From Thermoflexus hugenholtzii JAD2 (lineage in GTDB: Bacteria; Chloroflexota; Anaerolineae; Thermoflexales; Thermoflexaceae), in NCBI RefSeq assembly GCF_900187885.1, contig NZ_FYEK01000003.1, positions 124,001-188,000 on the forward strand: a DNA stretch of 64,000 nt, given 5' to 3'. This document shows positions 25,973-60,445 of this stretch, piece after piece. The notes beneath the pieces are model-generated. The model had not been told where the DNA came from, did not search any database, and worked only from the letters and a program-made list of their open reading frames with translations. Position 1 is the first letter of the stretch. Each line of letters begins with the position of its first letter. The position numbers and the translations under genes are program-made.

Positions 25973-26368
25973 ATGAGCGCCATCCATGAGGAGCGGCTTC
26001 ACCGCAGGCTGCAGGAACGCCGCCGGGTCCACCAGAGGGAGCTGGAGGAGGAGCTCCCCCGTCTGGTGGAGGAATTAAAAGCCATCGGGGTCGAGCGGGT
26101 GATCCTGTTTGGATCCGTCGTCCGCCGGACGATCGGTTTAACCAGCGACCTGGATCTTCTGGTCATATGGGATACGCCCATGGGATTCTTGGAACGAACC
26201 GCTTTCCTCTATCGCCGGTTGAACCCGCGGGTCCCCGTGGACCTGTTCGTTTACACGCCAGAGGAAATCCGGCGGCTGGCGGATCACCCTTTTATCCGTC
26301 AGGCACTGGCGGAGGGAGAGACGGTCTATGCGGCGGGATCCGAAGGCGGAGGGCCTCCGCTGGCTTGA
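25973..26368 (+). CDS. MNT-type nucleotidyltransferase domain protein (antitoxin-like)
   Basis: A 131-residue minimal nucleotidyltransferase. It has the core VERVILFGSVVRRTIGLTSD with DLDLLV, that is, GSxxR followed by DxD, and PVDLFVYTPEE as the third acidic strand. In MNT/HEPN pairs this protein neutralises the HEPN RNase, in some cases by AMPylating it. The first 35 residues are a charged helix (ERRRVHQRELEEELPRLVEE). The next gene overlaps its end by 41 bases, which marks a coupled two-gene operon. Confidence 0.85.
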   Translation: MSAIHEERLHRRLQERRRVHQRELEEELPRLVEELKAIGVERVILFGSVVRRTIGLTSDLDLLVIWDTPMGFLERTAFLYRRLNPRVPVDLFVYTPEEIRRLADHPFIRQALAEGETVYAAGSEGGGPPLA

Positions 26369-26741
26369 GCAGGGGGAGGCTGATCGAAAAGGAGGACAGC
26401 TCCTGCTGGAAGGCGGGAGCTATCACCTGGCCTGCTTTATCGCCCAGCAGGTCGCGGAGAAAGCCCTCAAGGCCTTCCTCTATGCCCAGGGCGAGGAGAT
26501 CGTCACGGGTCATTCTGTGGAAGCGCTGTGTCGTTGGGCCGCCGAGTATGATCCGGAGTTCGAAACTTTGCGCCCGGAGGTGGCCCCTCTGGATGGCCAT
26601 TATCTTCCTGCTTGTTATCCCAACAGTGTGCCCGATAGCATCCCTGCCCGTATTTATAATCGCGCGATTGCAGTGGAAGCACTGCAAATGGCTGATCGGG
26701 TCCTCGAGCTGGTGCGTCGCAAACTTCGCGAAGACCTCTAA
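26328..26741 (+). CDS. HEPN domain protein (toxin-like RNase candidate)
   Basis: A 137-residue HEPN protein: WLEQGEADRKGGQLLLEGG, FIAQQVAEKALKAFLYAQG, TGHSVEALCRWAAEYDP and ALQMADRVLELVRRKL match the four-helix HEPN bundle. It carries YLPACYPNSVPD, similar to the 'RYPn' loop of this subfamily. The strict RX4-6H catalytic motif is not obvious, so the protein may be a non-catalytic or divergent HEPN. It overlaps the nucleotidyltransferase gene and is followed by smpB 47 bp later. Confidence 0.85.
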   Translation: MRRDPKAEGLRWLEQGEADRKGGQLLLEGGSYHLACFIAQQVAEKALKAFLYAQGEEIVTGHSVEALCRWAAEYDPEFETLRPEVAPLDGHYLPACYPNSVPDSIPARIYNRAIAVEALQMADRVLELVRRKLREDL

Positions 26742-43477: not shown

Positions 43478-44745
43478 TGGGACGCAGGAACAGCGCGGTC
43501 ACGCGCGAGATCGGCCAGGGAACGAGATCCCAGGAGCCTCGCCGGCTGCGTGTCCGGGGATGGGAGATCCTTCTGTTGCTGGCATGGCTTTTTCCTCTCA
43601 TCAGAATCGAGCATCCGGCGCAGGGAGCAGGGGGTTTCTCCCTTCGTTTCTATGGGAACGGGGGCGGGGACATCGATCGGGTGAAGATCCCGGTGGAGGA
43701 GCGATCCATCAACCTCGGCGGGGATCTCACCATCGAATGGTGGATGAAAGCGCTGCAGGAAGAGAACCCCAGCTCGGCGTGCTTGTCGGCGGAGGGGGAC
43801 CTCTGGATCTTCGGCAACATCCTCTTCGACCGTGATGTCTTCGGGCCGGGCGACTACGGGGATTACGGGATCTCCCTGGCCGGGGGACAGATCGCTTTCG
43901 GAGTGAACCGGGGAGGAAACGGATTCACCCTGTGCGGATCCATCTTTGTGGCAGATGAAAACTGGCATCACATCGCCGTCACCCGGCGCGGGAGCGACGG
44001 GCGGATGCAGATCTTTGTGGACGGAAGGCTGGATGCGACCGGCTGGGGGCCCGCGGGCGACATCCGGTATCGGGACGGCCGGAGCACGAGCTATCCGAAC
44101 GATCCTTATCTGGTGATCGGGGCGGAGAAGCACGACGTGGATCGCACCACCTATCCCTCTTATAGCGGATGGATCGACGAGGTGCGGATCTCCCGGATCA
44201 TCCGGTATGAGGGGGAGTTCACCCCGCCCCGCGCCCCGTTCACACCGGACGAGGACACCGTGGCCCTCTATCATTTCGATGAGGGGCCGGAGGGCCCATG
44301 CAGGGACACCGTGACGGATGCCACAGGCATGAACCCCGGGATGTGCCGCTATGGATTCATCGATCGCTCACCCGGACCCGTTTATTCCTCCGACACTCCC
44401 TTCTCGACCCCTCCTCCACCAGTGATCCTCTCGGGACCGGTGGTCTTCCCTCTGGCCACGAGCGCCGTGGTGACTTGGACCACGGATGTGGAGGCCACCA
44501 GCGAGGTCCGATGGGGGAACGCCTGCGGGTCGTGGAGCCGATCCCTGTCCGATTCAGAGCTAAAGCGAACGCATTCCCTGGTTCTGGACGCGTTGAGCCC
44601 CGGGGTCTTTTACTGCCTGCAGGTGCGATCGGCGAACGCCGGGGGGAGCAGCGACTGGACCCCCGGGGATGGCCTGGGGTTCACCACTCGGGCGGTTGAG
44701 TTCCGAACCTATCTTCCGCTGATCCAGCGCGCATCGGATCGGTAG
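43477..44745 (+). CDS. Exported LamG/fibronectin-like domain protein with C-terminal YLPL motif
   Basis: A 422-residue exported protein. The start ATG 43477 overlaps the glycosyltransferase's stop (TGATG). An N-terminal charged stretch leads to the signal-like WEILLLLAWLFPLI. Residues 55-300 form a LamG/concanavalin-like domain (INLGGDLTIEWWMKAL, WHHIAVTRRGSDGRMQIFVD, DEVRISRIIRY, TVALYHFDEGPEG). Residues 325-410 look like a fibronectin/purple-acid-phosphatase N-terminal-like domain (SAVVTWTTDVEATSEVRWG). The end is EFRTYLPLIQRASDR, the motif shared with other exported proteins here. It likely binds glycans at the cell surface. The same frame stays open upstream to 42496, but that is antisense-free overlap with the glycosyltransferase and not part of this protein. 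Confidence 0.78.
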   Translation: MGRRNSAVTREIGQGTRSQEPRRLRVRGWEILLLLAWLFPLIRIEHPAQGAGGFSLRFYGNGGGDIDRVKIPVEERSINLGGDLTIEWWMKALQEENPSSACLSAEGDLWIFGNILFDRDVFGPGDYGDYGISLAGGQIAFGVNRGGNGFTLCGSIFVADENWHHIAVTRRGSDGRMQIFVDGRLDATGWGPAGDIRYRDGRSTSYPNDPYLVIGAEKHDVDRTTYPSYSGWIDEVRISRIIRYEGEFTPPRAPFTPDEDTVALYHFDEGPEGPCRDTVTDATGMNPGMCRYGFIDRSPGPVYSSDTPFSTPPPPVILSGPVVFPLATSAVVTWTTDVEATSEVRWGNACGSWSRSLSDSELKRTHSLVLDALSPGVFYCLQVRSANAGGSSDWTPGDGLGFTTRAVEFRTYLPLIQRASDR

Positions 44746-44778
44746 CGCGGGATCGCCGGAAGGGAGTTGAGGTGATGG

Positions 44779-46086
44779 ATGGGGACAGCGAGGAAGGGGA
44801 TCCGGAGGATCGGATGGTGGATCCTGGGGATGGCCATCGGGCTGGCACCCGGGAGGTTGGAGATCGTGGCATGGGCCAGCCCGCCGGCCGCCGGGAGCTG
44901 GGAGAGCTGGACGGTGTCCTGGCGGGGGGAAGCCCAGGAGGTGCGGATCTATCGTCCAGCAGGGTTCCCAGCTCACGCGCCCTACCCGGTCATCTATCTG
45001 CTCTCCGGATGGGCGATGGGGTTGGGGATGTGGGAGCGGACGGACCTGGAGCAGGCTGCTGACGCGGCCCATGTAATGCTGGTGGCATTGCAGGGGGAGG
45101 ATGATGGAGTTCCTTCGTATTACTCGATCTATGCAGGCCTCCCATGGCCCGGAGGATCCGCCTGGCAGGTGTCGTTCTACGACTGGTTCTTCCAGGGGGT
45201 CCTTCCCTGGGTGGAACGCCGCTACCCAGTGCGGCGGGATCCGGGGGGGCGGGCGCTGGTGGGGTTCTCCATGGGGGGGAAGGGCGCGTTCTCCCTGGCG
45301 GCCCATCGGCCAGACCAGTTCGCGGCGGCGGTCTCCATCGCGGGGGTTCTGGATCTCACGCGCCATGACTCCACTGCACTGCGGGCCGTTTACGGGCCAC
45401 CCGGAGCTGATCCCCTTCGGGTTGGGGCGGATAACCCGATAGAGCTGGCAGGGAACCTGAAGGGGCTGACCCTTCTCATCTTCCACGGCGGGGCGGACCC
45501 GGAGGTCCACCCGGCTCACAGCCGGCGGATGCATGAGGCCCTGGAAGCCCTGGCGTATCCCCACCATTGGGAGGAGATCCCCGGTCTGGGGCATGAGGTC
45601 TCATCCCTGGAGATCGCACGGATCTTCGAATATCTGGTGCCGATCTTTCGGGGAGCCCGATCCATCCCCTATCCGTGGTCTTACCGGTTCGCGATGGCCC
45701 GGAGCCGCACGGTTTATGGGATGACGATGGCTAGGACCCGAGCGGACGCGTGGTCGGAGGTCCGGGAGGTCACGCCGCAGGGCTTCGTCGTTCGCACCGA
45801 GGATACGCTGACGGTGATCACGCCGGTCTGGTATCCGGTGGGTTCACGGGTGCGGGTGGAGGTGTTCGATGAGCAGACAGGAGCGCAACTCGTCCGGCGG
45901 GAGGTGAGGGCCATCGGGGGACGCCTGCGACTGGATCTGCCGGCGGGCCACTGGCGTGTGGCATTCCAGCTCATCCGCCCTCGCCCTGACCTCAGGCCTG
46001 CGTCTCCGAACCTCCTGGGGCGGATGTCCCGCAAGCCGCTGTGTCCGTGGGAGGACCTCATCTGCTATTCGGTGAGGGAGCCATGA
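44779..46086 (+). CDS. Exported putative esterase (alpha/beta hydrolase, EstD/FrsA-like)
   Basis: A 435-residue secreted protein. A hydrophobic N-terminus (GWWILGMAIGLAPGRL) precedes a putative-esterase domain: VRIYRPAGFPAHAPYPVIYL (oxyanion strand), nucleophile Ser in ALVGFSMGGKGAF, Asp in IFHGGADPEVHP and His in IPGLGHEVSS. These are all catalytic parts of the esterase family related to antigen 85 and feruloyl esterases. About 150 further residues at the C-terminus form a small beta-rich domain. A role in trimming acyl groups from surface glycans is plausible because it sits between glycan genes and a deacetylase-like gene. Its stop overlaps the next start (ATGA). Confidence 0.82.
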   Translation: MGTARKGIRRIGWWILGMAIGLAPGRLEIVAWASPPAAGSWESWTVSWRGEAQEVRIYRPAGFPAHAPYPVIYLLSGWAMGLGMWERTDLEQAADAAHVMLVALQGEDDGVPSYYSIYAGLPWPGGSAWQVSFYDWFFQGVLPWVERRYPVRRDPGGRALVGFSMGGKGAFSLAAHRPDQFAAAVSIAGVLDLTRHDSTALRAVYGPPGADPLRVGADNPIELAGNLKGLTLLIFHGGADPEVHPAHSRRMHEALEALAYPHHWEEIPGLGHEVSSLEIARIFEYLVPIFRGARSIPYPWSYRFAMARSRTVYGMTMARTRADAWSEVREVTPQGFVVRTEDTLTVITPVWYPVGSRVRVEVFDEQTGAQLVRREVRAIGGRLRLDLPAGHWRVAFQLIRPRPDLRPASPNLLGRMSRKPLCPWEDLICYSVREP

Positions 46087-48908
46087 TTTCCATTCGCAGA
46101 TCTCGCTGGATCGGGATCGGATGGCTGGGATGCGCTCTGATGCTGGGGATTCTGCTGTTCCTGCCCCCCTCCTTCAGAACACGAGCGCAAGGCGGAGGCG
46201 GCGTCCGGCTGGCGCTCCTGACGGATCCAGGGGCTCCGAACCCCTTCGGACCCTATCTGGCTGAGATCCTCCGAGCGGAGGGCTGGGTCGCTTACGATGT
46301 GGTCTCCCCTTCCTCCCTCTCCCCCACCCTCCTGCAAATGTATCCGGTCCTTCTGGTGGCCGAGATCCCCCTCAACACGACGCAGGCCGGGATCCTACGG
46401 GATTACGTGTGGAACGGAGGTCGTCTCATCGCCATGCGTCCCTCGCCGGAGTTGCGAGCTGCTATGGGCTGGAACACCGGCGGGACCCTCTCGGAGGCTT
46501 ACGTCCGGTTTGAGCCGGGGCATCCGCTTGTTCAGGGGCTGGTCACGGAGAGCCTTCAGTTTCATGGGGTGGGAGATCTTTATGTCGCGGATGAGGTGGA
46601 AGTGATCGCCTGGTTTTATCAGGATCGGGATACGAACAGCGGGTTCGCAGCCATCGGGCGTGTGACCCGAGGGAACGGATGGGCAGTGTTCTGGGGCTAC
46701 GATCTGGCCCGCAGCGTGGCCCTGACCCGCCAGGGGAATCCAGACTGGGTGGGACAAGATCGGGAGCCGGATGGGATCCTTCGCACCACCGATGTGTTCA
46801 GCGGATGGATCGATTTGGAGCGTATCGCCATCCCTCAAGCCGATGAGCAAATGCGGCTGCTCTCGCGGCTGATCCGGGAGGGCCTGGCTGCAGCCGCTCC
46901 CATGCCTCAGCTTTGGTATTTCCCGAACGGCGTCCTCAGCCTCCTGATCCTCACCGCGGATGCCCATGGGAACCCTCAGAGCTATTACGAAGGGGAGCTT
47001 GCCAGCATTGAGTCCTTCAACGCCCGTGTGACGTTCTTCCTCACTCTGAACTTCGATTCATGCCCAAGCGCGCCTGCGCCCGATTCGGTGAACGCATGGC
47101 GGGCAGCCGGACACACCGTTGGGATCCATCCTTATGTCGGCACGGATGAATGGGGGAACGACTTCAGGGATTTCCGGACCAGCACCATGCGCACCCGCGA
47201 TCGCTTCCTGCGGTGCTACGGCCCGCCGCTTTCCCCCACCATCCGCACCCACCAGATCCGGATGGGGACCGGCTGGGTGGGCAACGCACGCGTGCACGCG
47301 GAGTTCGGTTTCCCCCTAAACCTGGATTACTACATGCGCGGCGACGTGACCGCACGCCCGGATGGGACCCAGGCCCATGGGTATCTGACCGGGAGCGGGC
47401 TCCCCATGCGCTTTGTGGATCTCAATGGGGAGATCCTGCCGGTCTATCAGCAGCTGACCAACATCGTGGACGAGCAATACATGGCTCAGCCTTTTTACCC
47501 GGACTGGCGTCGGGATGCGGATCAGGTCATCGCCATGATGGACGCAGGGCTCAACGCTTACTATTCCGCCTTTGTGGCCAACTTCCACGTGGACTATTAC
47601 AACTAGGGGGAGATCCGGCCGTGGGCAGAGGCGATTATGGCGGCGGCACGATCTCGCGGCATGCCGATCTGGACCGCGGACCAATGGCTGGATTATGTGC
47701 TCAATCGGGATGCCGCGCGAATTCAGGATGTGCAATGGGATGAGACCTCAGGGCGCCTCTCGTTCGCCTTTGTCAGCACGCCCACGCTTTCCTTTTCTCA
47801 TACGCTCTGGCTTCCGCAGCGCTTTGGAACATGGGAAGTCCGCGAAGCCCGTGTGGATGGCCAGCTCGTTCCGCTCATGCCTCAAACGCTCCGGGGGATC
47901 CCGGGGGTCTTCCTTCTTCTGAGCCCTGGCTCTTATGGGCTGGAGGTTTCCTTCGGGGGGCAAACGCCCACACCCAGCCCCAGCCCAAGCGTTATCCCGA
48001 CGTCCACGCCCACTTCCAGCCCGACGCCCACTGGGACTCCAAGCCCCACGCCAACTTTCACACCCCAGCCGAGCCCGACTCCAACAGCGACCCCGAGTCC
48101 GAGGCCCAGTCCCACGCCGACGCTCCCACCGGTGGCCTGGATTCAGGGGAGCGGGGGATGGAGCCCGGCGTCCCCGGTGGCCGGCGAGCCGGTGACCCTG
48201 ACCCTTATCCTGACGAACACCGGGCCGACAGAAGCGCGGGGGTTGAATGTCCGCTCCGTGCTTCCGCCCTTCGCCACTACCCGCACATGTAGCCCATCCC
48301 CATGCCAGATTGAGGCGGCCGCGTTGAGCTGGTGGATAGACCGGCTGTTGCCTGGCCAGGCGCGGATCCTGACCGGCGCTCTGGATCTACAGCCGGAGGC
48401 ATTAGGGGAGTTCGCCGTCCCCACAGAGGTTTCTTCAACCGAAACCGTGCTGCAGGGGGAGACCCGCTTCACCATAACCGCTTCGATCACTGCGCTCGTT
48501 GATCTGATCCTGTCCGGCCAGGTGGAGCCGAACCCCGTGATCGCCGGCCAGCCGATCACCTTCACCGTGGTCCTGGAAAACACAGGGCCCAGCACCGCGC
48601 GGACCGTGCAGCTGGAAGCTTCATGGCCGCCAAGTCTCACGCTGGAGACCTGTGCCCCTCCATGCGCAAATATGTCAGGGACGCGCTGGGATCTGGACGC
48701 TCTTTCCCCCGGAGGACAGACCGTGTTTCGAATCGGGCTCCGCGTGGATCCAGACTTCACTGGGATCGCCCGCCTCAACGTCCAGGCCCGATCCGCCACG
48801 ACGGAGACCGATCCCCATACGAATTCCAAACAATTTGACCTCCAGGTCCTAACTCGGTTCCGCTACCGTGTATTCATGCCAATGATCTTGCACACCGGGC
48901 CTCCATAA
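46083..48908 (+). pseudogene. Exported deacetylase-like/DUF11 protein interrupted by one in-frame TAG
   Basis: Codons 1-507 (46083-47603) and 509-941 (47607-48905) lie in one frame, split only by TAG at 47604-47606. The N-part has a signal peptide, a GATase-like domain (LALLTDPGAPNPFGPYLAEI) and a polysaccharide-deacetylase-like domain (LLILTADAHGNPQSYYEG, AAGHTVGIHPYVG). After the stop come [20 protein letters not shown], a Thr/Pro linker, two DUF11 repeats and the end [16 protein letters not shown]. The paralogue at 55,281-57,269 runs straight through the equivalent position (AHVDPFAIGGEAAETQARWL...GIPIWSAQRWLEF), proving both halves are one ancestral gene. A nonsense mutation, stop readthrough or sequence error are all possible. 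If translated as two, the second part may start at ATG 47637. Confidence 0.85.
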
Positions 48909-48945
48909 GGGATGGAATTCCTTCTGTCAAGGAAAGGAGTCAGGG

Positions 48946-50610
48946 GTGGCGACACGAACACAGGTTCCGGTCGTCGGCGAGGAGGAGCTGCGGCGCAACC
49001 TGGGGACGCGACGGATCCCGCCGTTGCCGGCGCCGCGCTTCCCGGATGCGAGCCCAGTGATCCAGCGGCTGCGCCGGCCGCGATCGCCGGAGGCAGTGGA
49101 TGTGCTGCTGGTGAACCCTCCCTCCCCGGATGGAGCGGTCTGGATCCGCAGCCAGCATCGGGTCGGGCGTCGCTCCCGGGAGAACATGATCTGGCCCCAG
49201 GTGAGCCTGGCCCAGATGGCCGCGATGCTCCACCCCGATTACAGCGTGGAAATCGTGGACGCTATCGCGCTGCGGATGGACTGGAAGGAGTTCGAAGATC
49301 TGCTCCGCCGCAAGCAGCCGAAGTATTACATCACTCAGGTCACTGCCCCCACGCTGACCAACGACATGTATGGCGCCTTCCTGGCCCGCAGCCTGGGGGC
49401 CAGGACCATCGCCTTCGGTACCCATGTGACCCCCATGCCCATCCCTACCATGGAGGCCTATCCGGCCCTCGATTTCGTGCTGCGCGGGGAGCCGGAGCTC
49501 ACCCTGCGGGAGCTCATCGACACCCTCGAAGGACAGGTTCCCGAGGGCCGGATGCGGCGGCTCTTCGAGGACAGCGACCCGGAGTGGTTTCCTCTGAACG
49601 AAGGAGAGGCCCGGGAGTGGCCGCTGGCGGAGAAGCTGGCGCGCATTAAGGGGCTGGTCTGGCGGCACAACGGAGAGATCCGCGTGAACGCCGATCGCCC
49701 CTTCATCCGTAACCTGGATGATATGCCGCTTCCCCTGCACCACCTGCTGCCGCTTTATCACTACCGGGCCCCGCTGATCCGTGGGCCTTACACCTTCATC
49801 GTCACCAGTCGGGGCTGCACGGCGGGATGCACCTACTGCATCAAACACGTGAGCTATCAATACTCCATCCGCCTCCGCTCCCCGGAGAACATCGTGGAGG
49901 AGATCCGCCAGCTGGTGGACCTGGGGATCCGCAACATCCACATGTATGCAGATCTTTTCACCATCAGCCGGGAGCAGGTGGTCGGGCTATGCGATCTCCT
50001 GATCCGAGAAGGGATCCGGATCCGGTGGACCTGCAACAGCCGGGTGGACTACGTGGATCGGGAGATGCTGCACAAGATGGCCCAGGCTGGTTGCTGGCTG
50101 ATCTCCTGGGGGATCGAATCGGCCAACGAACAGATCCTGAAGGGCGTGCGCAAGGGGTATCGGCTGGAGCAGGCTCCGCAGGCTCTCCGTTGGGCGAAGG
50201 AAGCGGGCATCAAGAATTGGGGCTACTTCATCATCGGCCTGCCCGGGGAGACCGAGGAGACCATCCGGCAGACCATCGAGTTCGCCAAGTCGCTGCCGCT
50301 GGACCTCGCCCTCTTCCACATCGCCGCGCCCTACCCCGGGACCCCGTTCTTCTTCCAGGTGGTGGAGAACAACTGGTTCCGCCCCGGCACAGCCTGGGAG
50401 GAGGTGGATATGGACCGCTCGACGGTCCTGGATTACCCCGGGCTGCCGGCGGAACGGCTGGAATACTGGCAGAAGCGGGCCTTCCGCGAGTGGGCCCTGC
50501 GCCCCGGCCCGATCCTCACCTTCCTAAAGGGCGCAATGGATCCCGCGGTCCTGGGATCCGCTCTGGAGGTGGCCACTCGCCATGCGCGCTGGCTCCTGGG
50601 GATGGAGTAG
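48946..50610 (+). CDS. B12-binding-type radical SAM protein
   Basis: A 554-residue enzyme of the cobalamin-dependent radical SAM class (BchE/HpnP type). Residues 50-180 are a B12-binding-like Rossmann region (VDVLLVNPPSPDGAVW, VSLAQMAAMLHPDYSVEIVD, IAFGTHVTPMP). The SAM cluster motif is CTAGCTYC (Cys291, Cys295, Cys298), followed by RSPENIVEEIRQLVDLGIRN and SWGIESANEQILKGVRKGY, then FIIGLPGETEETIRQTIEFA. Start GTG 48946 follows AAGGAAAGGAG. The substrate is unknown; among exported and glycan genes it may modify a lipid carrier, sugar or peptide. The classical DxHxxG of the B12 domain is not obvious, so cobalamin use is uncertain. Confidence 0.85.
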   Translation: MATRTQVPVVGEEELRRNLGTRRIPPLPAPRFPDASPVIQRLRRPRSPEAVDVLLVNPPSPDGAVWIRSQHRVGRRSRENMIWPQVSLAQMAAMLHPDYSVEIVDAIALRMDWKEFEDLLRRKQPKYYITQVTAPTLTNDMYGAFLARSLGARTIAFGTHVTPMPIPTMEAYPALDFVLRGEPELTLRELIDTLEGQVPEGRMRRLFEDSDPEWFPLNEGEAREWPLAEKLARIKGLVWRHNGEIRVNADRPFIRNLDDMPLPLHHLLPLYHYRAPLIRGPYTFIVTSRGCTAGCTYCIKHVSYQYSIRLRSPENIVEEIRQLVDLGIRNIHMYADLFTISREQVVGLCDLLIREGIRIRWTCNSRVDYVDREMLHKMAQAGCWLISWGIESANEQILKGVRKGYRLEQAPQALRWAKEAGIKNWGYFIIGLPGETEETIRQTIEFAKSLPLDLALFHIAAPYPGTPFFFQVVENNWFRPGTAWEEVDMDRSTVLDYPGLPAERLEYWQKRAFREWALRPGPILTFLKGAMDPAVLGSALEVATRHARWLLGME

Positions 50611-50632
50611 ATCACAGGAGGCGATTTCGGCA

Positions 50633-51877
50633 ATGTCGCTTGCTCCCACTTCGACGCCCGGAGCCCCCCGCCTGCCCTGGCTCCCCACGATGCGGGGCCT
50701 AGCGATCCTGATGATCGTGCTCTATCACATCACCATCGCCATCTACGGGACACCCTGGTTCGCCCACCCTCGGAGCGACTGGCCGGATCCGGCGGCCCGG
50801 ATCGCGCAGCTCCAGCCCATCCCTCAGGAAAACCCGGTGGCTTTCCTGCTGGCCAACCTGTTCCGCTATGCGGGCTGGCTGGGATATCAGGGCACTGGCG
50901 TGTTCCTGGTGATCAGCGGGTTCGGCCTCACCTGGGCGCTGGTCAGCCGCTCCCCGGCCGCCCTCCTGGACCGCCGAGCTTTCTACCTGCGGCGCTTCCT
51001 GCGCCTGTTCCCCCTTTACTGGGCCGGGCATCTGTTCTTCCTGGTCTTCAACAACCTGGCGGGCTGGCGGCCGTTCTCTCCGCTGGATCCCCGCTTCGCC
51101 CTCAGCCTGCTCGGGCTCCGGTTCCTGCCCGGGGTTTTCCATTTCATCTCACCCGCATGGTGGTTCATCGTCCTGATCATGCAGCTCTACGCGGTCTTCC
51201 CCTTCCTTTGGGAGGCCCTGAAGCGATGGGGGGCTATCCGCTTCGGGTTGGGCGCGCTGGCTCTTACCCTGCTCAGCCGGGCCATCGGCTTCTTCCTTCT
51301 GCCCGTGGACCCCGAGATGTGGTCCCGGGGCCTGCTTTTCACCTCGCGTCTGGGGGAGTTCGCCCTGGGGATGATCCTGGCCTGGTGGGCGGCGGGGGAC
51401 CCGGCGCGGGTCCAGGGCTGGCTGTGCTCGCTGCGCTCCAGGCTGGCCCTCCTGCTCCTGTATGGGTGCGGGATAGGGCTCTCCTTCACGCGGCCGGGGG
51501 CTGTGATCGCGCCGCTCCTGGTCACCCCCGCGGTGAGCGGTTTCCTGGCCCTGGCAGCCCGGGACCTTCTGCCCCGCTGGCCCCGCGTGGCGTGGCTTTT
51601 CTCACAGGTCGGTGTCTTCTCTTATGGGGTGATGGTCTTCCATCAGCCTCTCCTTTGGGTGCTGATCATCTGGCTGTGGCCATTCCACATGCCGTTGCCG
51701 ATTCGCATGAGCCTCATCGGAGCAGCCACTGTGTTCATCGTAATCTTTTCAGCGGTTATGGAGACCGGGGTGAATCGCCTGCTGGGCCGCTGGCCCTTCA
51801 ACCGCATCTTCCCACCCCTCGGCCCTTACGCCCGGATGCCTGTCCAGAATGTCCCGCTTTCAGCCTCACGGTCCTGA
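50633..51877 (+). CDS. Acyltransferase 3 family membrane protein
   Basis: A 414-residue polytopic membrane protein of the acyltransferase-3 (OafA/NodX-like) family, with about ten hydrophobic segments. The N-terminal catalytic-type segment TMRGLAILMIVLYHITIA carries the conserved RG...H, and LVISGFGLTWALVSR and RFLRLFPLYWAGHLFF follow, with the family's 'R.R.lR..P.y' pattern. These enzymes move acyl groups from the cytoplasm to extracellular polysaccharide. ATG 50633 is 22 bp after the radical SAM stop. The preceding sequence has AGGAGG. Confidence 0.88.
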   Translation: MSLAPTSTPGAPRLPWLPTMRGLAILMIVLYHITIAIYGTPWFAHPRSDWPDPAARIAQLQPIPQENPVAFLLANLFRYAGWLGYQGTGVFLVISGFGLTWALVSRSPAALLDRRAFYLRRFLRLFPLYWAGHLFFLVFNNLAGWRPFSPLDPRFALSLLGLRFLPGVFHFISPAWWFIVLIMQLYAVFPFLWEALKRWGAIRFGLGALALTLLSRAIGFFLLPVDPEMWSRGLLFTSRLGEFALGMILAWWAAGDPARVQGWLCSLRSRLALLLLYGCGIGLSFTRPGAVIAPLLVTPAVSGFLALAARDLLPRWPRVAWLFSQVGVFSYGVMVFHQPLLWVLIIWLWPFHMPLPIRMSLIGAATVFIVIFSAVMETGVNRLLGRWPFNRIFPPLGPYARMPVQNVPLSASRS

Positions 51878-51889
51878 AAGGAGGAAAAA

Positions 51890-54800
51890 ATGAGAGGAAT
51901 GCGACAGCTTCGCCAAGGCGGGTTAACCTTCCTCCTGGCCGGGATCCTCCTGGCCCTCTTGATCGGCGCGCTGGGGATCCTGAGCGGCACGCCCGTCCCG
52001 GTCGCCCGGGCGCAGGGGACCGGCGTCATCACCCACACCCGTGTGGCGGATTTCGCCGTGGGGTGCGCCATCTCCACCGGCATCTCCGTCGGCAACGCGG
52101 AGGGAGGGGAGTTACACCTCACTGCGAGTGTGGAGGACGATTTCGACGGCACCGCCATCGATGGGGCACGCTGGGTGATCAGCATCTCCAACCCGGCGGC
52201 AGGCCCCTATCAAGCCATCACACTGGCCAACGGCCTGGTCTCCCTGGATGGCATGTATCTGCGCTCGGTCCTCACAATGACCCAGCTCCCCCGCTTCTTC
52301 GAGGCTCGGGCCCGGCTGATGCGGATGCCCAACACCTCTGGCGAACCGGATCTGGGCTTCTACCGAGAGGTCGGCCCTGCATACAACCCATTCACCCCCA
52401 CCAGCTCCATCCGATTGTTCATCTTAGGAAATGGCGACATCAACAACCTGATCGTGCGAGCCCGGGATGGCGATGGGCCGATCGCGGATGTGGACATCCC
52501 GGATCCTGATGAGACACAGTTCCACGTCTTCCGCATCGAGTGGGAACCCGAGGCCACCCGCTATTACATCAACGGGGTTCTGCAAACCACCATTCCATCC
52601 CCCACTCTGGTGGTCACCTCGTGGGTGTTCCTGTATCATCAGACCCCCTCCTTTTACGGCTCCACCCCCACCGACATCGACTGGGTGCGCGCTGGCCAGT
52701 ATGTGGGGAATGGGACCTACACCTCGTGCCCGCAGGACGCCGGCCAGAAGGTCCGCTGGGATACCCTCGCATGGAACGCAGTCATGCCGCCAGGCACAAC
52801 CCTCCTCTTCCGCGTCCGCACCTCTGCGGACGGTGTGACCTGGTCGAACTGGTCGGATCCCTTGCCGGCGGGCCCAAACAACATCCCCTCCACACTGGCC
52901 TTCGCACGATATCTGCAATACCGCGTGGAAATGAGCACCACCAATCCCATGCAGTCCCCTGAGGTGCAAGAGGTGGCGCTGCGATATTCAGAGCTGGCGG
53001 ATCTCGTGGTGAGCAAGAGCGCATCCTCGGACACCGTCCTCGCAGGAAACGAGTTGACCTACACTGTCCGGATCACGAACAATGGGCCGCTCCCGGCTCA
53101 GAACGTGCGGGTGACGGACACGCTGCCCGGCGGGGTGACGTGGATCACGTCCACGCCTTCCCAGGGCACATGCACCACCCTCACATGCAACCTGGGGACC
53201 CTGAACCCGGGCGGCGTCGCCACGGTCAATATCCGGGTCCGGGTGAACAGCAATACCCTTGAGGGAACCCTGGCGAACCAGGTGATCGTCGGCACCGACA
53301 CCCCGGACGATCCCGCCAACAACACCGCGACGGTCTCCACGGCCGTCCAAACCCAGGCGGATCTGAGCCTGACGCTTCGGGACGAGCCCGATCTGGTGAT
53401 GGCAGGGGATCTGCTCACCTACACCCTGACCCTGACTAATGCCGGCCCCTCGGATGCCCGAGGGGTGCAGATCACCCTCACCCTTCCGAGCGGCCTGACC
53501 GTCCTCAGTCTCTTCCCCTCCCAGGGATCCTGTGCCGGCACCACCTGCACCCTGGGGGACGTGCCGGCGGATGGGACTGCCACTCTTCTCCTGCGCGCCC
53601 GGGTCAACTCCAGCACCCCGGCGGGGAACCTGACCCTCTCCGCCCAGGCGTCTGCCACCACCCCGGATCCCAACCCGGCCAACAACACCGCCAGCGAAAC
53701 CACCACCGTCCAAACTCAGGCCGATTTGGCCCTGACGATGAACGATGCCCCTGACCCTGTGCTGGCTGGAGCGTGGCTCACCTACACCCTCACCCTGGCC
53801 AACACCGGGCCTTCCGACGCCCAGTCGGTGGCGGTCGATCTTGCCCTCCCCGACGGCGTGACGCCCATCGCCTGGATCCCCTCTCAGGGGACCTGCGCCG
53901 ACACCACTTGCACCTTGGGCACCCTCCTCGCCGGGAACATCGCCCGCATTACTGTCACCACCCAGATCAGCAGCAACATCCCGCCGGGCACCATCCTCTC
54001 CGCCATCGCCCAGGCCACCTCCCCTACTTCCGACCCGAACACGGCCAACAACACGGCGACCGCCTTCACCACCGTCCAGACCCAGGCGGATCTGAGTCTG
54101 ACGATTCGGGACGAGCCCGATCCGGTGATGGCAGGGGATCTGCTCACCTACACTCTGACCCTGACTAATGCCGGCCCCTCGGATGCCCGAGGGGTGCAGA
54201 TCACCCTCACCCTTCCGAGCGGCCTGACCGTCCTCAGTCTCTTCCCCTCCCAGGGATCCTGTGCCGGCACCACCTGCACCCTGGGGGACGTGCCGGCGGA
54301 TGGGACTGCCACTCTTCTCCTGCGCGCCCAGGTCAACGCCGGCACCCCGGCGGGAAGCCTGACCCTCTCCGCCCAGGCGTCTGCTACCACCCCGGACCCC
54401 AACCTGGACAACAACACCGCCAGCGAAACCACCACCGTCGAAACCCAGGCCGATCTCGTCCTGACCTTGCAGGATGAGCCGGATCCGGTGGTGGCGGGAC
54501 GTCTCCTCACCTACACCCTTACCCTGACCAACGCCGGGCCATCCGACGCGCAGGGGGTGGTCCTCACGCTGACCCTGCCTATCTCATGGCAGGTGAATGG
54601 TTTCACCCCGATCAGCGGCTGCAGTCTGGACGAGGACGGGAACCGAATCATCTGTGCTATGGGAACCATGCCAGCAGAAGCTGTTCAGACGCTCCTCGTC
54701 ACCGGGACCGTGCCAGCAGAGGTCCCTGAAGGCACGGTGCTGATCGCCCAGGCAGAGGTTCGGGCGGGGACCCCGGATGCGAACAGCGAGAACAACGAGG

Positions 54801-55216
54801 CGCTGGCTTCCACCGAGGTGCGAGGGGAGGCGGATCTGCAGCTCCTCCTCTCCGGGGAGCCGGAGCTCGTCTTCGTTGGCGAGGTGGTCACTTATACCCT
54901 GGCTCTGACCAACACCGGTCCTTCCCTGGCGCCAGGGGTGCAGGTCACGCTCACCCTGCCCGACGGTGTGCAGGTTCTGGACGCGACGCCTTCCTTGGGC
55001 TCTTGTGTAGAGGCTTCCTGCGCCCTCGGGGATCTCCCGGTTGGAGAGAACGCCACGGTCCGGCTGCGCGTGCGGGTCGAGCGGTGGACCAGCCCGGAGA
55101 TCCGCGTCCGGGTTGAGGCCGTTTCGCGGGCGGTGGACCCTACACCCGCCTCCGCGGAGATCCAGACGCAGGTTCGCCTCCGCCTGTTCCTGCCGCTGGT
55201 TATGCGCGGCGGATGA
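51890..55216 (+). CDS. Large exported DUF11-repeat protein with C-terminal FLPLV motif
   Basis: A 1,108-residue secreted protein. AAGGAGG precedes ATG 51890, and a signal peptide ends near residue 41 (VPVARAQG). Residues 80-270 form a concanavalin-like domain (VEDDFDGTAIDGARWVISIS, FHVFRIEWEPEATRYYINGV). About residues 366-1090 hold six DUF11 repeats of roughly 120 residues, each with 'TYTLTLTNAGPSDA' and a disulfide-type CAGTTC-like pair. The end is RLRLFLPLVMRGG. DUF11 arrays form long cell-surface stalks in S-layer and adhesin proteins. The gene is probably part of the surface cluster; it is 12 bp after the acyltransferase. Confidence 0.85.
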   Translation: MRGMRQLRQGGLTFLLAGILLALLIGALGILSGTPVPVARAQGTGVITHTRVADFAVGCAISTGISVGNAEGGELHLTASVEDDFDGTAIDGARWVISISNPAAGPYQAITLANGLVSLDGMYLRSVLTMTQLPRFFEARARLMRMPNTSGEPDLGFYREVGPAYNPFTPTSSIRLFILGNGDINNLIVRARDGDGPIADVDIPDPDETQFHVFRIEWEPEATRYYINGVLQTTIPSPTLVVTSWVFLYHQTPSFYGSTPTDIDWVRAGQYVGNGTYTSCPQDAGQKVRWDTLAWNAVMPPGTTLLFRVRTSADGVTWSNWSDPLPAGPNNIPSTLAFARYLQYRVEMSTTNPMQSPEVQEVALRYSELADLVVSKSASSDTVLAGNELTYTVRITNNGPLPAQNVRVTDTLPGGVTWITSTPSQGTCTTLTCNLGTLNPGGVATVNIRVRVNSNTLEGTLANQVIVGTDTPDDPANNTATVSTAVQTQADLSLTLRDEPDLVMAGDLLTYTLTLTNAGPSDARGVQITLTLPSGLTVLSLFPSQGSCAGTTCTLGDVPADGTATLLLRARVNSSTPAGNLTLSAQASATTPDPNPANNTASETTTVQTQADLALTMNDAPDPVLAGAWLTYTLTLANTGPSDAQSVAVDLALPDGVTPIAWIPSQGTCADTTCTLGTLLAGNIARITVTTQISSNIPPGTILSAIAQATSPTSDPNTANNTATAFTTVQTQADLSLTIRDEPDPVMAGDLLTYTLTLTNAGPSDARGVQITLTLPSGLTVLSLFPSQGSCAGTTCTLGDVPADGTATLLLRAQVNAGTPAGSLTLSAQASATTPDPNLDNNTASETTTVETQADLVLTLQDEPDPVVAGRLLTYTLTLTNAGPSDAQGVVLTLTLPISWQVNGFTPISGCSLDEDGNRIICAMGTMPAEAVQTLLVTGTVPAEVPEGTVLIAQAEVRAGTPDANSENNEALASTEVRGEADLQLLLSGEPELVFVGEVVTYTLALTNTGPSLAPGVQVTLTLPDGVQVLDATPSLGSCVEASCALGDLPVGENATVRLRVRVERWTSPEIRVRVEAVSRAVDPTPASAEIQTQVRLRLFLPLVMRGG
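53349..53697 (+). repeat. Nearly identical DUF11 unit, copy 1
   Basis: DUF11 unit 2 of the large exported protein. The DNA is almost identical to the unit at 54,078-54,426, with only scattered changes, whereas the other units are far more diverged. This suggests a recent duplication or gene conversion. Confidence 0.8.
54078..54426 (+). repeat. Nearly identical DUF11 unit, copy 2
   Basis: Repeat partner of 53,349-53,697, shifted by 729 bp (243 codons), so two repeats further along. Protein differences are few (for example DEPDLVMAG against DEPDPVMAG). Confidence 0.8.
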
Positions 55217-55280: not shown

Positions 55281-57269
55281 ATGGGTTCCATCACCCGACG
55301 CCAGTTCCTGAAGATGAGCAGCGCAGCGGGGCTCACCGTAGCGGCAGTAGGAGCCCTCGGCGGCTACCGCCTGTGGGAGGACACGGACGGAGAGCCTCTG
55401 CCTGTGCGCGCTCCCTTTGCCGAGCCGCCGGATCGACGGTGGCCATTGAGCAGTCGTCCCGCTCCGATCCTGCTGATCACGAACGAACAGGCGGATCCTC
55501 CCACCGGGGCTTATCTCGCGGAGATCCTGCGGGCGGAGGGCCTGAACGCGTTCCGGGCGGCCTCCCTTTCGGCCCTACGCATGGAGATCCTGGAGCGCTT
55601 CCTGATGGTGGTGCTCAGCGCGGGCCCTCTGGAGGTTGTCCACGGGGAGACGCTGCGGCGCTACGTCGCCCGGGGCGGCCGCCTGCTCGCCATGCGGCCG
55701 CCCTCTCACCTGGCGGATCTCTTCGGGCTGGAGCCGACCTCCGGTCAGACCGCCGAAGGGTATATCCGGATCCGCCCGGAGCATCCCCTGGGTCGGGGTT
55801 TCTCTCGAGAGACGATCCAATTCCACGGCGTGGCCGATCATTACCGGCCGGCTGGCGCGGAGGTCGTCGCCTTCCTGGCCGGGAAGACCGGGGATCTACC
55901 CTTCCCGGCTGTGACCCTGTATCCGTTCGGAGAGGGCCAGGCCGGGTGTTGGGCCTTCGATCCGGCCTGGAGCATTGCCCTGACCCGTCAGGGCAACCCC
56001 GATCTTGCCCATCAGGAGCGGGATGGGCTCCATGGCCTGCGGGCCCATGAGCTCTTCGACGGCTGGATCGATTTGGACCGCATCGGGATCCCCCAGGCGG
56101 ACGAGCTGATGCGGCTGCTGGGCCGGATGATCACCGGGATGCTCTTGGACCGCCTCCCGCTCCCACGGATCTGGTATTTTCCGGACGGTGCCCCGGGGAT
56201 CCTGGTGGCGACCGGGGATGCCCACAACATGCCTCCGTCGGCGGTGGAAGAAGTCCTCCGCCGGGTGGAGGCGCGTGGGGGGACGTTCAGCGTGTATTAC
56301 GCCCCGCAGCCCCGCAATCGTCTTCAGCGTGCATGGCATCGTCTGCGGGATTGGGTCGATCAAGCGGCTGCACATGTCGTCCTGCCGGATCACGTGTGGC
56401 GCTGGCGGGCCCGTGGCCACGAGTTCGGGCTCCACCCCTATGTCGAAGAAGGCCTGGAGGCTGGCTGGCGGCGCTACTACGAAGTGTTCACCGGGATGGG
56501 CTACCGTCCGGTCCCCCCTACCGTGCGCACCCATCGGGTCCTGTGGAGCGGCTGGGTGGAGACCGCACGATTCCAGGCCGCCTGTGGGATCCGGATGAAC
56601 CTGGATTTCTATCATGTCGGACCGATGTTTCGAAAGCCAGACGGGGAGTGGGTCTTCGGCTACTTCACCGGCAGCGGGCTTCCGATTCGTTTCGTTGACG
56701 AAGAGGGCCGCGTCCTGAACATCTACCAGCAGCTCACCGCCCTGGTCGATGAGCAGCTGATCGGGCGGACCTGGCCGCAGGCGCCACAGTTTCCGCTTCC
56801 CATCGCCCTGGAGATCTCCAGGTCCCTCATCCGCCGAGGTGTGGAGCAGGGCGAGGCCCTCGCCCTTCAGGCCCATGTGGATCCGTTTGCCATCGGCGGG
56901 GAGGCCGCCGAGACCCAGGCCCGCTGGCTGGAGGGGATCCTGGACGAAGCCGTCGGGTTGGGCATTCCGATCTGGTCCGCGCAACGCTGGCTGGAGTTCG
57001 TGGAGGCCCGCGATCAGACGGAGCTGGAGGAGGTGCACTGGGATCCCGAGAGGCAGGCGCTCCATCTGCGGATCCGCTCCCCCGTTGCCCCCGCTCGTCT
57101 CACCCTGGCCCTCCCCCTGGAGATCCCGGGCGGGCGCCTCCATGAAGTGCGCATCGATGGCTCCTCCGTCCCCTATCGCGAGCGAAGCTGGAAGGGCATT
57201 CCCTGGGCGTGGATGGAGCTGCGGGGAGGGATCCTTTCGCTCTCGGCGTTCTACGGGCCCTCCGGGTAA
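55281..57269 (+). CDS. Tat-exported deacetylase-like protein, paralogue of the TAG-interrupted gene
   Basis: A 662-residue protein. The N-terminus MGSITRRQFLKMSSAAGL is a twin-arginine signal. Residues 55-245 form a GATase-like region (ILLITNEQADPPTGAYLAEI, LRAEGLNAFRAASLS), followed by a polysaccharide-deacetylase-like (NodB-type) part: GILVATGDAHNMPPSAVEEV, RARGHEFGLHPYVEEGLEAG and TVRTHRVLWSGWVETARFQA. The D-H-H metal triad is suggested by the Asp in GDAH and His in GLHPYV. It lacks the DUF11 tail of its paralogue and ends in an Ig-like beta region. ATG 55281 has AAAGG. It may deacetylate surface glycan or act on a nucleotide sugar-linked polymer; substrate unknown. It overlaps the converging gene by 19 bases. 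Confidence 0.83.
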   Translation: MGSITRRQFLKMSSAAGLTVAAVGALGGYRLWEDTDGEPLPVRAPFAEPPDRRWPLSSRPAPILLITNEQADPPTGAYLAEILRAEGLNAFRAASLSALRMEILERFLMVVLSAGPLEVVHGETLRRYVARGGRLLAMRPPSHLADLFGLEPTSGQTAEGYIRIRPEHPLGRGFSRETIQFHGVADHYRPAGAEVVAFLAGKTGDLPFPAVTLYPFGEGQAGCWAFDPAWSIALTRQGNPDLAHQERDGLHGLRAHELFDGWIDLDRIGIPQADELMRLLGRMITGMLLDRLPLPRIWYFPDGAPGILVATGDAHNMPPSAVEEVLRRVEARGGTFSVYYAPQPRNRLQRAWHRLRDWVDQAAAHVVLPDHVWRWRARGHEFGLHPYVEEGLEAGWRRYYEVFTGMGYRPVPPTVRTHRVLWSGWVETARFQAACGIRMNLDFYHVGPMFRKPDGEWVFGYFTGSGLPIRFVDEEGRVLNIYQQLTALVDEQLIGRTWPQAPQFPLPIALEISRSLIRRGVEQGEALALQAHVDPFAIGGEAAETQARWLEGILDEAVGLGIPIWSAQRWLEFVEARDQTELEEVHWDPERQALHLRIRSPVAPARLTLALPLEIPGGRLHEVRIDGSSVPYRERSWKGIPWAWMELRGGILSLSAFYGPSG

Positions 57270-60200
57270 ACGATCGCCTTGTGGATCCTCACCGGCCGGG
57301 GGCGCTCGGAGCGGGGCGATCCCTCGGCGATCCCAAGGCCCGTGCCGAAGATGATCATAAACGCCAGAGCCAGATCGATGAGGAAAAAGCCGTGATCCAC
57401 CAGACCGTGCCCCAGGAGATCGGCCATCGCCCCGGCGGCCCCCCAGCGCCAGGGATCCCCGGAGATCCCGGCCCGGACGACCCGACGCCAGAACAGGACC
57501 TGCCAGGCCAGCCCGGCGATCAGCCCCAGCAGCCCCGTGCGCGCCCAAAAGTCGAGAAAGACGTTGTGAGGGTGAGAGAGGTTGGGCTCCTGCCAGGCGT
57601 CTGGACGGATATAGCGGCTCCGATACCAGTAGAGGAAATTGTCCGGCCCCACCCCGAAGAGCGGATGCTCGCGGATCAGGTCCAGGGTGCTGGCCCACAG
57701 GCGGGCGCGGAAGAAGACGGTGCTGCCTGGGGTGGCGGCGCGCCGGGCCAGGGCCTCCCCGATGCGCGGCGCCAGCGCTCCGGCGAAGAGGAGGATCCCT
57801 CCCACCGCCATGAGGATCAGCCCCCAGCGGACCCCTCGTGACAGCCCTCCCCAGCGATCCCACAGCCACAGCCCGCCCATCGCCATCAAGGCCGCCGGGA
57901 TCCCCAGGAACCCGGCTCCCTCCGAACAGGTTCCGATCAGCGCGGCGCCCACCATCAGCAGGCCCAGCCCGGCCAGAAGGCGCCCGCGCCGGGAGCTCCC
58001 ATTCAGGGTTAGGGCCAGCAGGAACGGGAAGACCCGCCCCAGATAGAGGGCCAGATTGTTGGGAGAACCGTAGGGCCCTCGGATGCAGCGCGCCCCGGCC
58101 TCTCCGGTGATCAGCCCCGTCCCCGTGATCCACTGGAGCAGGCCCACGCCGGCGACCCCGATCCCTCCCAGCAGGAAGGCCTGAAGCACGGCCTCCCATT
58201 CCGCCCGCGAAGGCCGCATCGCCCGGGCCAGGAAGTAGAAGAGCAACGGCTCCAGGATCACCAGGCGCCACTCCCGCCAGGCCACCCGCTGGAAGGCCGC
58301 CAGGGCAGTGCTCAGGGTGGCCGCGCCGAAGAAGATCAGCATCCAGCGATCGGCCGGCTCCCAGGCCCAGCGCCCCCTTTCCCCCCTCCCCCAGCGGATC
58401 CCGCGATGCAGGATCCAGGCGGCCGCGGTGAGCAGTAGCATGAGCTCGTTCATCGGGAACGCCTTCTGGAAGAAGGGCTTCGGATACAAATAGAAGGGGG
58501 CCCAGAAGGCGGTGAGCGCCAGGCCGAGGGACGGGCGTCGGATCAGCACCATCAGGAGCAGGCACGCCGCCAGGGCGGTGAGGGCCACCCGGGGGGCCAG
58601 ATAGAAAAGCCCGCTCAGGGCCAGCCCCAGTCCCAGCCACCCCACCTCCCCCGCGCGCCGGAGCCCCCATGGCTCCAGCGAGATCCACCACATCCCGGCG
58701 TAAACCAGCCCGGAGAGCCCCCACGCGCCCCACAGGCCCAGCCGGTGGGCGATGGCCTGCAGGATCTCCTGCAGGGGAGGCCGACGGGCCCGAACCAGTC
58801 CGGTGACGAGCAGCCATCCCCCCATCCCCACCCCGAGCAGGCTCAGGGCCAGGGCGAGGCGATACCGGAGTGGATCCGGCCCGACCCCCGCGATGCTCCA
58901 GCCCACCAATGCCCACTGCCCCCAGCCCCGCTCGGCCTCGATCCGAACGGTGTGAAGCCCGTAGGGCAGACCCTCGGCCACCGGAACCGTGACCACCTCC
59001 GGGGTCGCGTAATCGGGGGAGGTGAGGATCAAATACGCGCCGCGGGCGTCGCGGGGAAGCCGGTTCGCCGGCTGCCCATCCACCGACACGTAAAGATGGG
59101 CGCGATACCCTCCCCGCCGGACGCGAAGGGCCAGCCCGGTCCCCTCAAAGGTGAAGCGCAGGCGATCCCCCTCCTCCCGGCCGATATCCGCTCCCAGGGC
59201 GGAGAAGCGCCACGCGCCCTCATACTGCGCGCCCGGCGGCGGCCCATAGCCGGATCCGTCCGCTTGCAGGATGGCCGCCGGGTAGTATCCGGGGGTGAAG
59301 ACCGCTTCGTCTGCGACGGCCCGCAGCGCCTCCGCCGCCGGCCGGAGCCGCCCGCGGGGATCGACCATCGCAAACCCCCAGTAGGGATCGTCGGGGGGCA
59401 CATTCGGGCGCCAGCTCTCTAAGAACATCGTCCCCATCCAGGGCCATTCCCGCCGGACCCGCTCGACGGCCTCCCGGATGTAACGGGCCTGGGTGGCCTC
59501 GTCCACCTGCCCCCAGATGGAAGGGCGACCGCTCCAGCCCGGCGGCAGGGCGTTCCAGCCCCAGTGGCTGGCCCAGAGGGGTTTCCCCTCATCGCCGTAT
59601 CGCACCATGACCTCGCGCAGCAGGATCGCCCGGGAGAAATTCAGTACCTCCGGGTCCACCCGGCGGTCCTCCGGTCCGGTGTCGAAGCCGTAGGGCTTGG
59701 CAGCGACGATGTCGAAGGACTCCCGGGCGCCCAGCTGATACAGCCGCTCCAGGAACAGCCAGTCCGCCAGGTTCCACGGGCCCTGCTCCACTGTGGGGGC
59801 CAGGCCCGCCAGGAGGATCACCGCGTCCGGGTCCGCGGCGCGGATCGCGGCCGCTGCCGCTCGCAACAAGGTGGCATAGGCAGCGGGATCCGGAGCGCCC
59901 CCGCCCCATCCGATGGTCAGGTTGGGCTCGTCCCAGATCTGATAGAACCGCACCCACGAGCCATAGCGCGCGGCGAAGGCCCCGGCGAACCGGGCGAAAT
60001 CCTCCGGATCCAGCGGCGGGGCCATCGGCCCGATCCGTCGCGCCGCCCATGCGGGGCTGCCCCCCAGCACCACCACCGGCTCCAGGCCAGCGGCCCGAAT
60101 GTCGGCCATCACCTGGTCTGCCTCGGACCAGTCCCAGCGATCCCGCGTCGGCTGGATCGCCGACCAGGGGAAGAAGACGCGGATGCGGGAGATGCCCAAC

Positions 60201-60445
60201 CCGCGGACCTGCTGCAGATCCCGATGGCGATCTTCGGGGTTCTGTCCGAAGAGGTAGAGGTTGAGGCCCACGCGGGGTTCGCCCGACCAGGGGATCGGCG
60301 GGGGGAACCCGGCGATGGTCCCCCGCCAGCGGGCGCGCAGGATCCCTCCTGTCAGCCCCAGGCTGAGGAGCCCCAGGCTGAGGCACAACCATCCGATCCC
60401 CATCCGCACGACCGGCCGCATCATGCCTTGCCCTGGAAACCTCAT
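57251..60445 (-). CDS. Glycosidase-like TIM barrel fused to O-antigen ligase-like membrane domain
   Basis: A 1,064-residue single ORF. A signal-anchor (GIGWLCLSLGLLSLGLTG) leads to a GH-A-type TIM barrel (about residues 35-390): VGLNLYLFGQN, ISRIRVFFPWSAIQPTRDRW, acid/base-type YQIWDEPNL near 170 and a second glutamate in GTMFLESWRP near 342. A beta domain follows (about 400-530). From about 540 there are ten or more membrane segments with O-antigen ligase/Wzy_C features: GPYGSPNNLALYLGR near 790, GVGPDNFLYWYRSRYI and HPHNVFLDFWARTGLLGL near 955. It may assemble or transfer a surface polymer at the outer face and trim it. The start is uncertain (60445, or 60424). Upstream sequence to 60667 is unlikely to be coding. 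Confidence 0.82.
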   Translation of the reverse strand: MRFPGQGMMRPVVRMGIGWLCLSLGLLSLGLTGGILRARWRGTIAGFPPPIPWSGEPRVGLNLYLFGQNPEDRHRDLQQVRGLGISRIRVFFPWSAIQPTRDRWDWSEADQVMADIRAAGLEPVVVLGGSPAWAARRIGPMAPPLDPEDFARFAGAFAARYGSWVRFYQIWDEPNLTIGWGGGAPDPAAYATLLRAAAAAIRAADPDAVILLAGLAPTVEQGPWNLADWLFLERLYQLGARESFDIVAAKPYGFDTGPEDRRVDPEVLNFSRAILLREVMVRYGDEGKPLWASHWGWNALPPGWSGRPSIWGQVDEATQARYIREAVERVRREWPWMGTMFLESWRPNVPPDDPYWGFAMVDPRGRLRPAAEALRAVADEAVFTPGYYPAAILQADGSGYGPPPGAQYEGAWRFSALGADIGREEGDRLRFTFEGTGLALRVRRGGYRAHLYVSVDGQPANRLPRDARGAYLILTSPDYATPEVVTVPVAEGLPYGLHTVRIEAERGWGQWALVGWSIAGVGPDPLRYRLALALSLLGVGMGGWLLVTGLVRARRPPLQEILQAIAHRLGLWGAWGLSGLVYAGMWWISLEPWGLRRAGEVGWLGLGLALSGLFYLAPRVALTALAACLLLMVLIRRPSLGLALTAFWAPFYLYPKPFFQKAFPMNELMLLLTAAAWILHRGIRWGRGERGRWAWEPADRWMLIFFGAATLSTALAAFQRVAWREWRLVILEPLLFYFLARAMRPSRAEWEAVLQAFLLGGIGVAGVGLLQWITGTGLITGEAGARCIRGPYGSPNNLALYLGRVFPFLLALTLNGSSRRGRLLAGLGLLMVGAALIGTCSEGAGFLGIPAALMAMGGLWLWDRWGGLSRGVRWGLILMAVGGILLFAGALAPRIGEALARRAATPGSTVFFRARLWASTLDLIREHPLFGVGPDNFLYWYRSRYIRPDAWQEPNLSHPHNVFLDFWARTGLLGLIAGLAWQVLFWRRVVRAGISGDPWRWGAAGAMADLLGHGLVDHGFFLIDLALAFMIIFGTGLGIAEGSPRSERPRPVRIHKAIVYPEGP

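Follow-up and report, generated by a model that had tools for sequence, protein, structure and literature searches.

In-frame stop codons that interrupt genes are reported to be widespread in bacterial genomes and short-lived (Belinky et al. 2021, PMC7918605). In the cases described in that study, one in-frame stop interrupts a gene that is intact elsewhere, dN/dS is low, the stop persists only briefly in evolution, and flanking sequences are near-identical in relatives; all of this likewise holds for the gene presented here. We see no substantial difference between them and our case, in which the stop is confined to one genome and no argument for persistence or readthrough can thus be drawn from conservation. 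A TAG inside a gene is also the feature shared with amber recoding genomes, which employ pyrrolysine or a suppressor tRNA. Thermoflexus hugenholtzii JAD2T, the host of the interrupted gene, was isolated from Great Boiling Spring, has 48 tRNA genes, and was described as the sole cultured representative of its order (PMC8129789). Here, we analyzed a 64-kb window, i.e., the whole stretch of DNA under study, from the draft genome of this isolate (3,216,964 bases in 78 scaffolds, 97.7% complete). In our judgement, a recent Trp-to-amber nonsense mutation that is private to the JAD2T lineage, or that arose in culture, very likely explains the interruption; this and the other likelihoods given below are judgements and were not computed.

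The frame at 46083-48908 of the forward strand is open except for one TAG at 47604-47606, which is codon 508 of 942. Its translation yields 507 sense codons, the TAG, and another 433 sense codons that end at a TAA, as had been stated in the preliminary description of two intact segments with a single TAG between them. At the G+C content of the window (66%), 433 open codons would be expected by chance with a probability of about 3e-5. In relatives, the gene continues in the same frame with a homologue of the part behind the TAG (81% identity in the nearest relative G004). Because it contains DUF11 domains and its in-frame match to relatives sets in directly behind the stop, the tail does not represent a chance frame. 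The tail was also correctly described as free of further damage. Comparison with G004 revealed no frameshift in the gene; length differences amount to whole codons and are confined to the linker and to the N-terminal end of the aligned proteins. The linker (47973-48152) varies in length by whole codons among the species. Scans for tandem repeats and for promoters and terminators added no information. The features of the locus are compiled in Table 1.

Table 1. Features of the interrupted gene and its paralogue in the JAD2T window.
Feature	Position	Strand	Basis or remark
First open segment, codons 1-507	46083..47603	+	N-terminal hydrophobic export signal, GATase1-like alpha/beta domain, most of NodB-like barrel
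In-frame TAG, codon 508	47604..47606	+	Trp in 5/5 readable congeners; TGG in the four with codon printed
Second open segment, codons 509-941, same frame	47607..48905	+	Marks of purifying selection
Last helix and strand 8 of NodB-like barrel	47613..47675	+	AlphaFold2 model of congener orthologue (helix 477-490, strand 495-497), transferred by alignment
Beta-sandwich domain behind barrel	47718..47960	+	Model strands 512-592
Thr/Ser/Pro-rich linker	47973..48152	+	18 codons shorter than in G004, in-frame gaps
Two DUF11-type domains, the second at 48501-48833	48153..48857	+	Pfam search, DUF11 E = 1.3e-20
C-terminal tail [11 protein letters not shown], (F/Y)xxxLPL type	48858..48905	+	Sequence inspection; also ends neighbouring exported proteins
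Natural terminator TAA of full frame	48906..48908	+	
Intact paralogue, 662 aa, 43% identical	55281..57269	+	

The site of the stop was readable in five congeners, namely G004 and the genomes G001, G008, G005, and G003, which correspond to Candidatus T. tengchongensis, Candidatus T. japonica, Candidatus T. sinensis, and Thermoflexus sp. SKYG36, respectively; two more distant Chloroflexota (G014, G041) served as outgroups. T. hugenholtzii was represented by JAD2T alone in this comparison; three MAGs of the species are also known from the same spring (GBS85_2, GBS70_5, GBS60_20). The gene is uninterrupted in all five congeners, which have Trp in the alignment column of the stop. The printed codon is TGG in G004, G001, G008, and G005, while Trp of G003 was read from the protein alignment. 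The orthologues of both outgroups are likewise uninterrupted, and the comparison of the same gene in related genomes, as proposed in the preliminary description, hence recovered the TAG in none of them. The nearest relative, G004, is 94% identical before the stop, and the wider locus is syntenic between it and JAD2T. Among the genomes compared, the TAG is private to JAD2T and one transition away from the TGG of the relatives. The preliminary description had contrasted the stop with the paralogue, the only other relative of the interrupted gene found in the JAD2T genome. This paralogue indeed reads intact past the matching place, but it is not this 43% identical gene that is informative; it is the orthologues, whose motif HVDYYNWGE or HVDYYSWGE aligns with HVDYYN-stop-GE in JAD2T.

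Purifying selection is seen behind the stop. A comparison of JAD2T with G004 gives a dN/dS of 0.10 for the codons preceding the stop and likewise for the 121 codons that follow it, and of 0.29 for the linker and DUF11 part. With G001 used for polarisation, codons 509-941 acquired 28 synonymous and 9 non-synonymous changes on the JAD2T branch and 31.5 synonymous and 12.5 non-synonymous changes on the G004 branch; the JAD2T branch thus has no excess of amino-acid changes and no relaxed selection after the stop. Dating by parsimony on the 37 changes suggests that a stop aged at least 20% of the JAD2T branch is unlikely under neutrality (P = 0.005), with a limit of about 10% at P = 0.05. As far as can be judged from these sequence changes, the stop has probably been present for at most about 10% of the JAD2T branch, counted from the split with G004. 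The absence of other lesions, which had been considered notable in the preliminary description, is unsurprising for such a recent stop; it is predicted by a recent mutation and is therefore no evidence for readthrough. The selection signal is no argument for readthrough either, because it most likely predates the stop.

A recent nonsense mutation, which was among the options initially offered, is favoured because the TAG is private to JAD2T and a single transition from TGG, and because neither another lesion nor relaxed selection is apparent. A single recent substitution of TGG to TAG, in the JAD2T lineage or in culture, would stop translation at codon 508 and give a protein of 507 residues, and full-length product would be formed only through background misreading.

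The likely consequences for the protein can be viewed on an AlphaFold2 model of the T. tengchongensis orthologue (mean pLDDT 82.5, pTM 0.87), which comprises a GATase-type alpha/beta domain, a putative NodB-like barrel, and a beta-sandwich. Among solved structures, this intact orthologue is best matched by PelA, an enzyme that modifies exopolysaccharide (9cgy, Foldseek E = 1.1e-11, TM-score 0.41 by query length). Further fold matches are the polysaccharide deacetylases 3rxz and 5zns and GH42-type enzymes, with low whole-chain TM-scores. The H(S/T)xxH metal motif that is usual in NodB-like enzymes of family CE4 cannot be made out as such by eye. Pfam matches to Polysacc_deac_1 and GATase1_like are weak and under the curated cut-offs; the profile matches to chitin deacetylases are weak as well. 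The Polysacc_deac_1 score, the sequence criterion for family CE4, is 12.6 bits compared to a cut-off of 23.1, and we do not claim membership in this family. The surrounding genes code for proteins of the sugar-kinase, glycosyltransferase, acyltransferase, esterase, and O-antigen-ligase types, which makes a role in an exported polysaccharide a reasonable inference. The exported protein is probably polysaccharide-modifying. Several of the exported proteins encoded at 43681-55216 carry the (F/Y)xxxLPL-type tail ([27 protein letters not shown]), which is perhaps a shared surface-anchoring signal. In the model, the TAG falls after barrel strand 7 (462-468) and before the last helix and strand 8. 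The truncated product would consequently have an incomplete barrel and neither beta-sandwich, linker, DUF11 domains, nor C-terminal tail. As it lacks the end of the catalytic-type barrel and all that follows, the gene is probably non-functional in JAD2T.

Among the alternatives to a recent mutation, an error of base calling or assembly in the deposited sequence, with an intact gene in the strain itself, fares best, yet we regard it as unlikely. An error would be in line with the draft state of the genome (78 scaffolds), with a single-base difference that adjoins a G run, and with a gene that has no other lesion. However, the change is a substitution, whereas a G run predicts a change in length, and a mixture of strains is unlikely in the genome of an isolate. 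The consensus also looks clean in the neighbourhood. Of the approximately 47 window genes common to JAD2T and G004, the interrupted gene alone contains an internal stop in JAD2T, and the comparison revealed no frameshift there. These clean surroundings argue against a consensus of poor overall quality, while they leave room for a single error. One recent nonsense change per approximately 50 genes is not remarkable in a pairwise comparison. The comparison with G004 was used instead of a screen for split genes in a 464-kb sample that was based on coding scores only, as same-frame neighbours mimic the signal in such a screen. Two other differences between the genomes were observed in the window. 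A gene for a HEPN-domain protein at 26328-26741 is intact in JAD2T (137 aa), and its G004 counterpart matches over the first approximately 60 residues only, followed by an apparent internal deletion. The long protein encoded at 57251-60424 on the reverse strand combines an O-antigen-ligase (Wzy_C) domain with a weak match to GH42; a TAG shortens its counterpart in G004 by five residues, a trivial difference at the C-terminus.

Amber readthrough, either programmed or efficient, would produce a secreted short form alongside a long form that bears the DUF11 domains and LPL tail, and had been raised as an option in the preliminary description. It could be invoked because both segments are open, with the distal one under apparent purifying selection, and because in-frame stops with low dN/dS have been reported in bacteria (PMC7918605). 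We nevertheless consider it very improbable. The TAG occurs in none of the five congeners and is hence not conserved, and purifying selection behind it is accounted for by its recency. Based on the model, the short form would break off inside the barrel, i.e., within a folded domain, while a programmed form is expected to end between domains. RNA around the site is not clearly more stably folded than shuffled sequence in JAD2T (z = -1.6 and -0.6; approximately 0.2 for the congener segments), although folding alone leaves room for a context effect. The translation apparatus offers no support either. We followed the earlier proposals to look for amber suppressor tRNA genes and to count TAG usage, and a covariance-model search with the Rfam model, combined with ARAGORN typing, identified no tRNA with CUA anticodon among the 48 tRNAs of the 97.7% complete draft. 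TAG is an ordinary terminator in this genome: in sampled stretches totalling 464 kb, it terminates 58 of the 370 genes predicted with a rough codon-usage gene caller. One tRNA encoded outside the window was typed as a selenocysteine tRNA with anticodon UCA; such a tRNA reads UGA and not UAG. That JAD2T reads the new amber at a useful rate, and would thereby export a mix of tail-less and tailed enzyme, is by the same measure hardly to be expected.

Re-initiation behind the TAG, e.g., at an in-frame ATG at 47637 that lies 31 bases past the stop and opens a 423-aa ORF, would yield two separate polypeptides; this two-gene reading is highly unlikely and was rejected, as this ATG corresponds to an ordinary methionine conserved inside the congener protein (AIMAAA or SIMAAA), the second piece would have no export signal, and the split would fall inside one modelled fold. 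Amber recoding or reassignment of TAG was rejected on account of the lack of a CUA anticodon among the 48 tRNAs found and the normal use of TAG as terminator in the 464-kb sample, which set JAD2T apart from the amber recoding genomes.

A private stop of this kind is an ordinary finding. For a single in-frame stop in an otherwise undamaged gene, recency should be the first reading, and close relatives should be consulted before readthrough is proposed. For the annotation of Thermoflexus, our analysis indicates that the gene in JAD2T is probably a recent pseudogene or contains a consensus error, while its copies in the sister species are intact.
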